From contig PNKZ01000001.1 of assembly GCA_013822735.1 (NCBI GenBank), positions 496,001 to 560,000 of the forward strand: a stretch of DNA of 64,000 nucleotides, in the 5' to 3' direction. The notes under the pieces are model-generated. The model worked only from the letters and a program-made list of their open reading frames with translations. It ran no database searches and was not told the origin of the DNA. Shown in pieces: positions 9,027 to 17,031 of the stretch (position 1 is the stretch's first letter; each line of letters opens with the position of its first letter). The position numbers and the translations under genes were made by a program. The stretch comes from Pirellula sp. Lineage in GTDB: Bacteria; Planctomycetota; Planctomycetia; Pirellulales; PNKZ01.

Positions 9027-10904
9027 TTAGTGCGCCGCTGCGGCCGGAGCAACTTTCGTCGGGGCGCGATAGCGCTTTTCGATGAGCGCTTGCACTTGCT
9101 GCAGGCTTTCTTCGGGGGAGCTGCCCGACGATTCGATCGATTCGACGGCCGCGGCGAGGTCGTCGTCTTGCAGCGATTCGGCGAACCAGCGGGAAATGTC
9201 GTGCTGCTGCAGGTGATACTGCCACGTTTCCGGGTCGACCCCTTCGGCCATGAGCAGGAAGATGTCGAGATTCGGCGCACGGAGCTTGAGCTTGCCGGCC
9301 GGGCCGCGGAAGACGAACGTGTCGTCGGGCGGGAGGCGCCCTTCGAGCGAACGGCGGAGGTGACGGGCCCGATCGCTGCGCGTGGGAGTGGGGCGGACGG
9401 CTTGCGCGGCCTTCGCGCCGCGCTGGTAGACGAGCACCTCGCCGTGCCGCAGATGGAACGGAGCGCCGTCGGACGGTGCTCCGTTGGACGGTGCACCGTG
9501 CGGGACCGGCTCGGGCGCGGCGTCGCCGGTGAGCTCGGTGAATTCACGCAGGACGGCGCGCGGGTCGGGCCCGACGGTGACGACGGTTTGCATTTTCGCG
9601 AGCACGGCGGGAGCGACTTCCGCCGGCCGGTCGGCGGCCAGGAGTAGGCGATCGAGCAATGCGGGGTCGAACGGTTGCGCGAGTTTGAGCGCGTCGGGAG
9701 TCCAGTCGCGCGGGAAGAGGGTTTGCGCTTCGTCGACGAGTATCCAATGCGGCCGGCCGGTGGCGATGCGCATTTCCAACAGCCGCGCGAGCAGCGCATG
9801 GAACAACTTCGGGCGCTCGGCCGGCGGCAGGCCGGAGAGATTGACGACGAGATTGCTCTTCGGGTTCTTGAGCACTTGCAGCGCTTCGTCGAGCGACGGC
9901 GGGGCGTCGCTCTTGCCGAGGACGGTGCCGCCGAAGAGGCTCGCGCCGGCCGAGAGGGCGAAGTCTCCTTCGGGATCGATCGTGCAATGTTGGTAGCCGT
10001 GATCGCCGAGGCGTTCGGCGAGGCCGGCGGCGATGTTCGACTTGCCCGAGCCTTTAGGGCCGGCGATAAGCACGCCGTTGTCGAAGGGAGAGAGGCGAAG
10101 TTCGTGCGGAGCGGCGACCGATTTCGCGACGGCGACTTGCGCGGCGGCGGCCGGTTTGCCGTTGCGCAGCGTATCTGCGCCGCTGCGCGTGGTGCCGAGG
10201 AGGAACTGGTGCCGCAGCGCGCGGCCGGCGAAGTCGGAGAGGTCGTCGGCCAGGATATGGTCGATGAGCTCGGCGACGCCGGCGCCGTGGTCGTTGGCGA
10301 GCACGAGATCGGCGCGATCTTTGAGCGACGGCAGCGCGTTGGCGACGGCCGCGGAGAATTCGCAGGTATTGAGAAACGCGTGGTCGTTTTCGGCGTCGCC
10401 CACGCCGACGACTTCGTGCGGGGAGAGGCCCAAGCGTTCGAGGGCCGCGGCGAGGCCGGTCGCTTTGTTGACCGCGGCCGGCAAGATCATGACGGCCCCC
10501 TTGTTGAAGATGACGTGCAACTCCAGGCCGAGATCGCGGATAACGGCGAGCACCGTGCCTTCGTGCGGCTCCCACGTGGCGACGATGCAGCCGCCGACGC
10601 TGATGCGATCGACGCCGCGGCGGCGAAGCTCGTCGACGAACTCCGGCGGCGGGGCTTCGCCGAGCAGCGTGCTCTGGCCGTCGGACGGACGAAAAAGCTC
10701 GGCGCCGTTTTCGGCGACGATAAGTTCGAACAAGTCGAGCCGGGGACAAGTGAGCTTCAGATCGGCCATCTCACGGCCGGTGACCATGATGAGGGTTCGG
10801 CCTGCGCTGCGCCAGCGTTCGAGCGCGGCAACGGTCGCGGGATCGACGACGCCGTGCGTGGCGATGGTGCCGTCGTAATCGGTGGCGAGAGCGCGGTAAC
10901 GCAT
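9027..10904 (-). CDS. HAD-IIB phosphatase fused to HerA-like P-loop ATPase
   Basis: 625 residues. Residues 1 to about 220 are a complete HAD-IIB hydrolase: DYDGT (nucleophile D9 and acid D11), VTGR near 41-44, K147 in NKATG, and GDAEND at 169-174. A linker follows, then a P-loop NTPase with Walker A GPKGSGKS (282-289) and Walker B HWILVDEA (386-393), resembling the HerA or VirB4-like DUF87 class. Such fusions exist in databases, but I know of no assigned role. The C-terminus (from about 520) includes GEVLVYQRG, as in ATPases of this type. A GAATGCT heptamer element lies just upstream of the start. Confidence 0.8.
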   Translation of the reverse strand: MRYRALATDYDGTIATHGVVDPATVAALERWRSAGRTLIMVTGREMADLKLTCPRLDLFELIVAENGAELFRPSDGQSTLLGEAPPPEFVDELRRRGVDRISVGGCIVATWEPHEGTVLAVIRDLGLELHVIFNKGAVMILPAAVNKATGLAAALERLGLSPHEVVGVGDAENDHAFLNTCEFSAAVANALPSLKDRADLVLANDHGAGVAELIDHILADDLSDFAGRALRHQFLLGTTRSGADTLRNGKPAAAAQVAVAKSVAAPHELRLSPFDNGVLIAGPKGSGKSNIAAGLAERLGDHGYQHCTIDPEGDFALSAGASLFGGTVLGKSDAPPSLDEALQVLKNPKSNLVVNLSGLPPAERPKLFHALLARLLEMRIATGRPHWILVDEAQTLFPRDWTPDALKLAQPFDPALLDRLLLAADRPAEVAPAVLAKMQTVVTVGPDPRAVLREFTELTGDAAPEPVPHGAPSNGAPSDGAPFHLRHGEVLVYQRGAKAAQAVRPTPTRSDRARHLRRSLEGRLPPDDTFVFRGPAGKLKLRAPNLDIFLLMAEGVDPETWQYHLQQHDISRWFAESLQDDDLAAAVESIESSGSSPEESLQQVQALIEKRYRAPTKVAPAAAAH

Positions 10905-15412: not shown

Positions 15413-16960
15413 TTACTCGGCCTTGCGTGGAAGCGGGAAAGTTTCGCCTTGCAGTTGTCTATTGGGTCCGTCCGGCAAGCGTTGGGCAACTAGCGGCAAC
15501 TTACTTCGCCAAGCCCAAGCGGCGGCGAGTGCGTCGGCGTTGAACGCGATCGGCACCGTGCGCACGTCGTCGCGACGGAAGTCGCCGGGGAGCCGACTAT
15601 ATTTGTAGGCTGCCGTGAATCCGCCGGTGAAGGGTTCGTTGCGATCGTCGGCGAGCATCGAGTTCGGCACGGTCACGTAGAACGTGTCGTGCTTGGCAAA
15701 GCATCCTTCACCGGCCCGCAGCAATTGCTTCCGCAGGAACAGGCCGCGGTACAACTCGCGGGCCGTGTATTCGCCGGGGTCGACGTACGTGATTTTCTCC
15801 GCAATGAGCGAGGCGTACGGTTGTCGGCCCGAGGCATCGCGATAGGTGCGCAGGCGCTGAAAGGCCGCATCGATCGGGGCGACGGCGAGCGGGTAATGCG
15901 TGCAGCCGAGCACGACCGTCGCGATCGGCTTCGTCGCGCCGCTCCGTTGATAGGCATCGACGAGTGTGGCGACGTCGTAGCGAATGTAATTGTCGACCGA
16001 GTTGAGCCGGACGTTCGCCAGGTCGTTCAGATCGCCGACGATCGCTTGCTTGTCGAAGCCGTAGACGTTGAGCAGGGCGCGTTGCAGAGTCGCTTGTTTG
16101 TTCGCGCCCGACGGGCCTTGATACGGCGCAGATTGCTCCGACGGCGTGGTGACGAACGCCGGGTTGCTTTCAATCGCCCCGGCGAGGCCGACGCTGCCTT
16201 GTTGGCAAACGACCGGCACTTGCAAACCTTGCTGCCCGGCGAGCCGCGCGATGGTCTTGGGATAGGCGTTGCTGGAGCAGGTGCCGACCGTGGCGAGCAC
16301 GGCCGCCGCGCCGGCGGTAGTGTCATTGCGCATGGCGTCGATCACGCCGTGGCCGCCGGCTTCGACGACGCCGACCACCAAGAGCGGAATCTTCCACTTC
16401 TCGAGCGCCGCGCGAATGTCGTCGAGCCCGTAGGCCGTGGCGGTGTTGCAGGCGATGACGATCGCCTTCACCGGCGGCTTGTCGCGTTTCGGCGGATCGG
16501 TCGGCAGCGCTCCGTAGTAGCGGTCGCCGAGAAGGAAGAGAGCATCGCGCAAGATCAGCTCGCGCATGAAGTCGACGCGACCGGCGGAGCCGTAGTTGCC
16601 GTACGGCATGTTGGCCTGATCGCCCAGGTAGATGAAGCGTTCATTTTGGAAGTCGGGCTTGCCGTCGGCGCCGGGTGCTCCCGTGCCGTTATGGTGTTGA
16701 TCGAGTTTGAGGATCGCTTCGAGCACGGTGAGCCCGCCGATGCCGGAGTCGAACACGCCGATCGGCAGCGTGCGTAGCTCGGCGGGGTCGGTCGCGGCGG
16801 CGGCGTACGTATCCCAAGGAATAGAAGCGACGGCATCGGGCTCGCGATGGCCCGCGACGTGCGCGACGATCGCGGGGAGGTCGTCAGCGGCGGCGCTGCC
16901 GTTGGGAAGTAAACCGATACCGACGACGAAACACCAAGACGTGATGATCAATCGCACCAT
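15413..16960 (-). CDS. Exported glutamate-racemase-like protein
   Basis: 515 residues, about twice the size of MurI. The ATG at 16960 is chosen because GAGGAG lies 8 nt upstream and the product begins with a signal peptide (MVRLIITSWCFVVGIGLLPN, cleavage near SAAAD); a start at 16993 is less likely. The racemase core is complete: GVFDSGIGGLTVL, IACNTATA with the first catalytic Cys, and LGCTHYPL with the second. Long insertions separate these blocks. MurI interconverts L- and D-glutamate in the cytoplasm for peptidoglycan; this one should act outside the inner membrane, on Glu, Asp or another amino acid. Confidence 0.8.
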   Translation of the reverse strand: MVRLIITSWCFVVGIGLLPNGSAAADDLPAIVAHVAGHREPDAVASIPWDTYAAAATDPAELRTLPIGVFDSGIGGLTVLEAILKLDQHHNGTGAPGADGKPDFQNERFIYLGDQANMPYGNYGSAGRVDFMRELILRDALFLLGDRYYGALPTDPPKRDKPPVKAIVIACNTATAYGLDDIRAALEKWKIPLLVVGVVEAGGHGVIDAMRNDTTAGAAAVLATVGTCSSNAYPKTIARLAGQQGLQVPVVCQQGSVGLAGAIESNPAFVTTPSEQSAPYQGPSGANKQATLQRALLNVYGFDKQAIVGDLNDLANVRLNSVDNYIRYDVATLVDAYQRSGATKPIATVVLGCTHYPLAVAPIDAAFQRLRTYRDASGRQPYASLIAEKITYVDPGEYTARELYRGLFLRKQLLRAGEGCFAKHDTFYVTVPNSMLADDRNEPFTGGFTAAYKYSRLPGDFRRDDVRTVPIAFNADALAAAWAWRSKLPLVAQRLPDGPNRQLQGETFPLPRKAE

Positions 16961-17031
16961 GCCGCGTCTCCTCAGGAGGGAAGCTGCGAACATTGTAGCC
17001 GGAATTCGGGCGTGGAAACGTGTGACGAAAA

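Follow-up and report, generated by a model that had tools for sequence, protein, structure and literature searches.

A long, putative MurI-like racemase with a predicted export signal in Pirellula sp. and in scattered relatives from several phyla

We have analysed a 64,000-nucleotide stretch of Pirellula sp. DNA (contig PNKZ01000001.1; hereafter the window), in which an initial annotation had described a glutamate racemase core within an exported 515-residue protein. The open reading frame of 515 codons and a stop is present at the coordinates first given, and lies on the minus strand, which had been left unstated. An alternative in-frame ATG at 16993 would produce a protein of 526 residues; the shorter product is favoured because GAGGAG at 16973-16968, the Shine-Dalgarno sequence claimed initially, is indeed found, with a spacing of 7 nt to the start codon at 16960. 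The gene is flanked by a divergent upstream gene, whose product has no Pfam match, and by a convergent MFS transporter gene. An ORF similar to the upstream gene occurs at both congener loci, the MFS gene at that of G001 only. Given this arrangement of the flanks and the congener loci, no operon argument can be made with the window neighbours. No Rfam family reached the gathering threshold between positions 10000 and 24000 of the window.

Comparison of the window gene with a congener copy (L007) revealed 89, 73 and 208 differences at the first, second and third codon positions, respectively, with dN of 0.21 and dS of 0.97. Across the three copies of the genus, dN is 0.21-0.26, dS is 0.97-1.09 and their ratio 0.21-0.25, with the differences concentrated at third positions; all of these comparisons exclude the first 40 aligned codons. 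The codon-position differences and dN/dS values therefore indicate a real gene constrained by purifying selection. Overall, the racemase core, signal-peptide-like N-terminus and motifs observed initially are confirmed; their positions are collected in Table 1.

Table 1. Positions of the gene and its features in the window
Feature	Position	Strand	Basis or remark
Exported long MurI-like racemase gene (predicted), 515 aa + stop	15413..16960	-	ORF, Pfam/TIGR00067 matches, alignment, codon differences
Shine-Dalgarno GAGGAG, 7 nt before ATG	16968..16973	-	sequence
Sec signal peptide (predicted; cleavage site placed by eye), residues 1-25	16886..16960	-	similar N-termini in most relatives
FDSGIGG, residues 70-76 (Asp71, Ser72)	16733..16753	-	alignment
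Family-specific insert 1, residues 87-103	16652..16702	-	mean occupancy 0.92 in long family
GDQANMPYGNY, residues 113-123	16592..16624	-	PYG common to MurI; N117, M118, Y123 invariant in long family
Family-specific insert 2, residues 147-162	16475..16522	-	mean occupancy 0.88 in long family
ACNTAT, residues 170-175, first catalytic Cys171	16436..16453	-	C171, N172, T173 in 51/51 long rows
Glu264, aligned with conserved MurI Glu	16169..16171	-	alignment
Family-specific insert 3, residues 271-328	15977..16150	-	missing in three Verrucomicrobia rows, L040-L042
GCTHYP, residues 352-357, second catalytic Cys353 and His355	15890..15907	-	alignment
Family-specific insert 4, residues 367-385	15806..15862	-	mean occupancy 0.93 in long family
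KYSR, residues 453-456, C-terminal extension	15593..15604	-	alignment

At the protein level, the product matches Pfam PF01177 (Asp_Glu_race) at E 8.8e-9 with 35.9 bits, exceeding the 31-bit cut-off, and no other domain was detected in it by Pfam at E up to 1. In a DNA-level profile search of the genome the best Asp_Glu_race piece scored 28.2 bits, below the same cut-off. The glutamate racemase model TIGR00067 matches at E 6.6e-24 and 84.7 bits, which lies below its equivalog cut-off of 146.65 and does not confer membership; the pieces of the 27 listed long relatives each fall below this value too, and the window protein reaches no NCBIfam equivalog cut-off. All 29 members of the long-family alignment A2 match TIGR00067 at E ≤0.001, the best at E 8.8e-35. 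As judged from these profile scores, homology to MurI/Asp_Glu_race is well above chance. An AlphaFold2 model of the window protein built from a 29-row alignment has a pLDDT of 87.4 and a pTM of 0.88, and its best Foldseek matches are MurI structures. In VIA-align, the model superimposes on 2dwu_B with Z 28.6 and an rmsd of 2.5 A across 258 aligned residues, followed by (putative) aspartate racemases at Z 17.4 at best. The predicted fold is thus that of MurI. The protein also has the MurI residue set (two catalytic Cys, Asp-Ser, PYG, Thr and His) when aligned with 73 canonical rows, but differs from the cytoplasmic MurI of ∼270 residues in having 515 residues and an export signal, its location being predicted.

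The three motifs FDSGIGG, ACNTAT and GCTHYP are intact, as first noted, and the racemase residues on which that reading depended persist across the long relatives. D71, S72, P119, G121, C171, N172, T173 and T227 are found in all 51 long rows and Y120 in 50, while C353, T354 and H355 are found in 50, the remaining row being a contig-end fragment (L063) with a gap at this point; L063 is included in the 51 alignment rows and was used neither in A2 nor in the tree. F70, D71, S72 and G73 occur in 51/51 long and 73/73 canonical rows, full conservation of motif letters in the latter arising partly by construction because canonical rows are the loci, 73 of 83, in which a motif rule found all three motifs. 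The long rows depart from the canonical ones at N117, M118 and Y123. R/H117 and K/R123 of canonical MurI are replaced by an invariant N and Y in the long family, and position 264, E in 73/73 canonical rows, is D in 43 and E in 8 of the 51 long rows. K453 and R456 of the C-terminal extension are present in 50/51 long rows and fall in a gap in 71 and 72 of the 73 canonical rows, respectively. The four inserts have mean occupancies of 0.88-0.94 in the long family, with fewer than 20% of canonical rows having residues there.

The N-terminus, MVRLIITSWCFVVGIGLLPNGSAAA followed after the predicted cleavage site by DD, resembles a Sec signal peptide both on visual inspection and under a simple rule; the signal peptide proposed initially is therefore predicted here as well, and it is kept across the family. 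By a crude rule (hydrophobic stretch, preceding positive charge, lipobox or AXA after), 45 of the 49 long proteins are predicted to carry an export signal, in the form of a signal peptide or a lipobox, compared with 0 of 58 canonical MurI. The 49 include the window protein, two congeners and L063, and leave out L046, whose contig starts inside the gene, L166, which is the same gene as L007, and L167. The control consists of 58 of the 73 canonical rows, the rest having no upstream Met or not having been relocated, and carries the extra condition that the hydrophobic stretch ends before FDSG, a condition that all 45 positives meet by their positions. Starts for 20 loci of a Bacteroidota order and for the control were set at whichever in-frame Met scored best as a signal. 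The median distance from start to FDSG is 61 residues in the long proteins; for canonical MurI, the median distance from FDSG to the closest Met upstream of it is 13 residues. Of the four proteins missed by the rule, L045 has a membrane-anchor-like N-terminus and L158, L160 and L163 are borderline. A lipobox is present in several long relatives, mostly from Bacteroidota, suggesting that these are lipoproteins. Members of the long MurI-like family most likely act outside the cell membrane.

Among 57 neighbouring genomes, own included, three carry the gene, these being the own genome and two of its three congeners. In a phylum sample of 392 genomes, at least two have the long form, the own genome and G411 (a 468-aa ORF identified with the long-family profile), while 14 other matches with E up to 1e-15 score less well and coincide with loci of an over-cut-off MurI. 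Conservation of the insertions across planctomycetes, raised by the initial annotation, thus holds in one respect: the inserts are kept across the long family, but the gene is sparse in the phylum and a planctomycete-wide trait was rejected. A scan of named genomes detected at least 27 long relatives (L039-L065) in seven phyla among the best 80 of 586 loci, at E 2e-57 or better, including the contig-end fragment at 9e-54, followed by a gap to matches of 4e-22 and weaker. Within these best 80 of 586, the hosts belong to Planctomycetota (Phycisphaerae, one named MAG), Verrucomicrobiota, Bacteroidota, Eremiobacterota (Vulcanimicrobiota), Acidobacteriota and Neomarinimicrobiota (Fidelibacterota), together with a proteobacterium and one host labelled just 'bacterium'. 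In the Bacteroidota order of a Pedobacter relative, at least 21 of 300 genomes carry the gene, that relative included (20 new). Counts in the Bacteroidota order and the phylum sample are lower bounds, as at most five and three candidates per genome, respectively, were scored, and single cases among the 27 could be binning errors because most of the listed hosts are MAGs. The scattered occurrence suggests horizontal transfer or repeated loss. Of 17 pattern matches in a scan of viral contigs, tblastn identified none as a relative, and seven plasmid records matched over 23-26% of the query each, five of them annotated murI or racE; virus origin and plasmid carriage were rejected.

In an unrooted tree, a single branch with support of 100/100 separates the 50 long rows from 37 canonical rows (every second one of the 73); L166 is contained as a copy of L007. 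The window protein groups with its congeners, then with three Verrucomicrobia (99/97) and then with the Phycisphaerae MAG (82/100).

MurI-like domains were also observed in a different context. In G208, a genome of the same phylum, a 920-aa protein (L193:1837-4599, minus strand) fuses an ELFV dehydrogenase (E 8.5e-37), of the glutamate/leucine type, to a MurI-like domain (E 1.6e-12), a fusion through which deamination could be linked to racemisation. G144, G249 and G292 also have open frames, 926-940 aa in length, that match MurI. A 718-aa relative in G352 (L194:1218-3374, plus strand) combines the N-terminal domain of ELFV with a MurI-like domain of 30.6 bits, just below the Pfam cut-off; the ELFV catalytic domain was not matched in it at E 0.001.

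Coexistence with canonical MurI bears on the role of the long form. A canonical MurI over cut-off is also present in 23 of the 27 listed host genomes (best 80 of 586), one of the 23 matches having an internal stop and one being partial; the hosts of L039, L042, L047 and L051 lack it. As 23 of the 27 have an ordinary MurI, the long copy has another job. In the window's own genome, which is 99.06% complete, a check for a second murI, proposed initially, detected no other MurI-like locus. MurD gave no match at E 1e-5 in this genome (G000) or in the congeners G001-G003, and its cut-off was passed in 19 of 57 relatives, including the same-family G005; MurD presence is therefore patchy within one order. 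A weak own match to MurD (4.4e-5) was discarded as cyanophycin synthetase. The three Mur_ligase_M loci of the own genome are a MurE-type ligase (TIGR01085, 261.3 bits against a cut-off of 257.3), this cyanophycin synthetase (contig C2, L120:313-3024, minus strand; TIGR02068, 1106.3 bits, cut-off 850) and FolC. DapF is present as a separate gene. According to published work, the PVC superphylum has many members without MurI, and in Chlamydia D-Glu is produced by DapF (PMC5885031). Peptidoglycan is reported in four planctomycetes, including Rhodopirellula baltica (PMC5147048), and our claim is therefore limited to a MurD route not having been found in the own genome. It had been suggested that the racemase could supply or recycle D-amino acids; supply to wall synthesis is not borne out, given the lack of a MurD match and the canonical MurI of 23 of the 27 listed hosts.

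Gene neighbourhoods were counted at 47 of 49 loci, with ORFs called by a longest-ORF rule; L042 and L167 gave no ORF match. Adjacent same-strand ORFs fall in a hydrolase set in 17 of 55 cases, at 13 of the 47 loci, compared with 4 of 46 second ORFs of the same-strand run and 8 of 282 other ORFs. The associated Fisher value of 1.6e-9 is optimistic because the hydrolase set was picked after viewing the neighbours and loci from the same order are not independent, and 34 of the 47 loci have no adjacent gene of the set; adjacency to hydrolases is thus a lead. The 17 comprise eight Amidohydro_3 genes (seven loci), four penicillin-amidase-like genes (one fused to a beta-lactamase-family domain), two further beta-lactamase-family genes and one each of gamma-glutamyltranspeptidase (GGT), C26 and amidase. 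On visual inspection the N-terminus is signal-like in 16 of these 17, the exception being the L050 amidase. The strongest point is that Amidohydro_3 lies beside the gene both in Bacteroidota and in an Acidobacteria MAG (L048). The adjacent amidohydrolase of L161 falls in the BLAST cluster but gave no match to the query set, and is uncounted. Neighbours considered unrelated or housekeeping synteny were likewise left uncounted: glutamine synthetase III, enolase, PHP, SusD, GMC oxidoreductase, TldD, dnaX, SpoU methylase, DEAD helicase, HPP, AMP-binding, and S41 and M14 peptidases. In L156, L162 and L165 of the Bacteroidota order, the gene order is GGT, Amidohydro_3, long racemase, followed in L156 and L165 by a beta-lactamase-family gene; as the three form one clade (100/100), this order represents one observation. 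GGT was found in 7 of 7 PVC genomes tested, so that its presence says little; the own genome has two, one of which (L192) has a signal-like N-terminus from the first in-frame ATG. The second half of the earlier suggestion, recycling or scavenging, would fit the neighbours in part of the family.

The best explanation, to which we assign about an even chance, is that the gene encodes an exported, cofactor-independent two-cysteine racemase of MurI fold, acting outside the inner membrane in amino-acid scavenging. The family probably scavenges D-glutamate or a similar amino acid. Hydrolases of the same compartment (GGT, D-aminoacylase-like amidohydrolases and amidases) would free D-glutamate, or a closely related compound, from debris of the wall, from gamma-glutamyl compounds or from N-acyl derivatives; the exported racemase would equilibrate the freed D form with the L form, and ordinary transporters would take up the latter. 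The catalytic set of the long family, identical to that of MurI in the alignment, counts for this explanation. Counting against it, the Asp that replaces the MurI Glu in most relatives could indicate another substrate, and outside the cytoplasm the pair of catalytic thiols may become oxidised. We infer catalytic activity, glutamate as the substrate and the direction of net flux, as we do the function in the window's own organism, in which the immediate neighbours are not hydrolases.

Amidohydrolases, GGT and amidases handle conjugated amino acids, and these neighbours are also consistent with an exported racemase of the same fold which acts on a different or bulkier substrate, such as aspartate, glutamine or an N-acyl or gamma-glutamyl amino acid. 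The inserts, N117/M118/Y123 and K453/R456 would then reshape the pocket, in agreement with conservation of the inserts, the invariant N and Y in place of canonical R/H117 and K/R123, the Asp at position 264 in 43 of 51 long rows, and a window protein that scores below every NCBIfam equivalog cut-off. This is possible but clearly less probable than scavenging of glutamate itself, as PYG, CNT, CTH, Asp71/Ser72 and Thr227, positions which we take to surround the amino acid in MurI, are kept. It is unlikely, though worth stating, that a widespread extracytoplasmic branch of the MurI fold has gained, by way of its conserved inserts, the ability to epimerise glutamate in conjugated form or inside a peptide or polymer, coupled to gamma-glutamyl and N-acyl hydrolases of the same compartment; gamma-glutamyl, N-acyl and wall stem peptide substrates would be candidates. 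We regard with similar doubt a Bsr-like periplasmic source of D-amino acids for editing of, or signalling through, the cell's own wall. The retained export signal and the precedent of periplasmic BsrF/BsrV and RacK (PMC12502697) agree with such a role, but a canonical wall is doubtful in a genome with three Mur_ligase_M loci and no MurD match, despite the peptidoglycan reported in planctomycetes (PMC5147048), and the recurrent neighbours are degradative hydrolases.

That the protein is the cell's sole glutamate racemase, cytoplasmic and devoted to wall synthesis behind an N-terminus that is no working signal, appears very improbable. It would explain why the genome has a single MurI-like locus; however, the signal is kept across phyla, often as a lipobox, and no MurD match is present to use the D-Glu. 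DapF, the Chlamydia version of which is a published D-Glu source (PMC5885031), is present as well, a counterpoint weakened by the own DapF scoring 111.6 against 350 for the NCBIfam bifunctional model. Just as hard to credit is a protein of MurI fold that has lost catalysis and serves in binding or as a structural element, as the catalytic residues are conserved in 51/51 long rows (the C353 block in 50/51, the exception being the one contig-end fragment).

Compared with known systems, the exported family of the preferred explanation is closest to MurI/RacE (TIGR00067; PDB 2dwu, 1zuw, 2jfo), with which it has in common the predicted fold, two Cys motifs, Asp-Ser, PYG and CTH. It differs in being about twice as long, in its export signal, conserved inserts, C-terminal extension and separate branch, in a window protein below the TIGR00067 cut-off, and in coexisting with canonical MurI in 23 of 27 listed other hosts. 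The Bsr racemases are PLP-dependent enzymes of Alr fold, whereas the window protein shows only Asp_Glu_race in Pfam (E up to 1) and is not of Alr type; the likeness to periplasmic BsrV/BsrF and RacK is a functional analogy, that of a racemase outside the inner membrane. Aspartate, hydantoin and allantoin racemases have the Asp_Glu_race superfamily fold in common with it but match less well in structure (Z ≤17.4). Bifunctional DapF of Chlamydia is similar as an alternative D-Glu source in lineages without MurI (PMC5885031), but belongs to another protein family, and the own DapF is a separate gene.

MurI is viewed as an enzyme of wall synthesis in the cytoplasm and as a target for drugs. No description of an exported, periplasmic or extracellular glutamate racemase was found in the literature searched, which covered few subscription papers; the exported MurI-fold family is real and lacks a description in that literature. 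Annotation pipelines may label the long genes murI, and in genomes without a canonical MurI a D-Glu gap in wall synthesis would then be wrongly filled. A coherent exported branch in several phyla, in most cases alongside an ordinary MurI, would mean that D-glutamate is handled outside the membrane too, and the family offers a direct test of bacterial use of D-glutamate from wall debris and gamma-glutamyl polymers.
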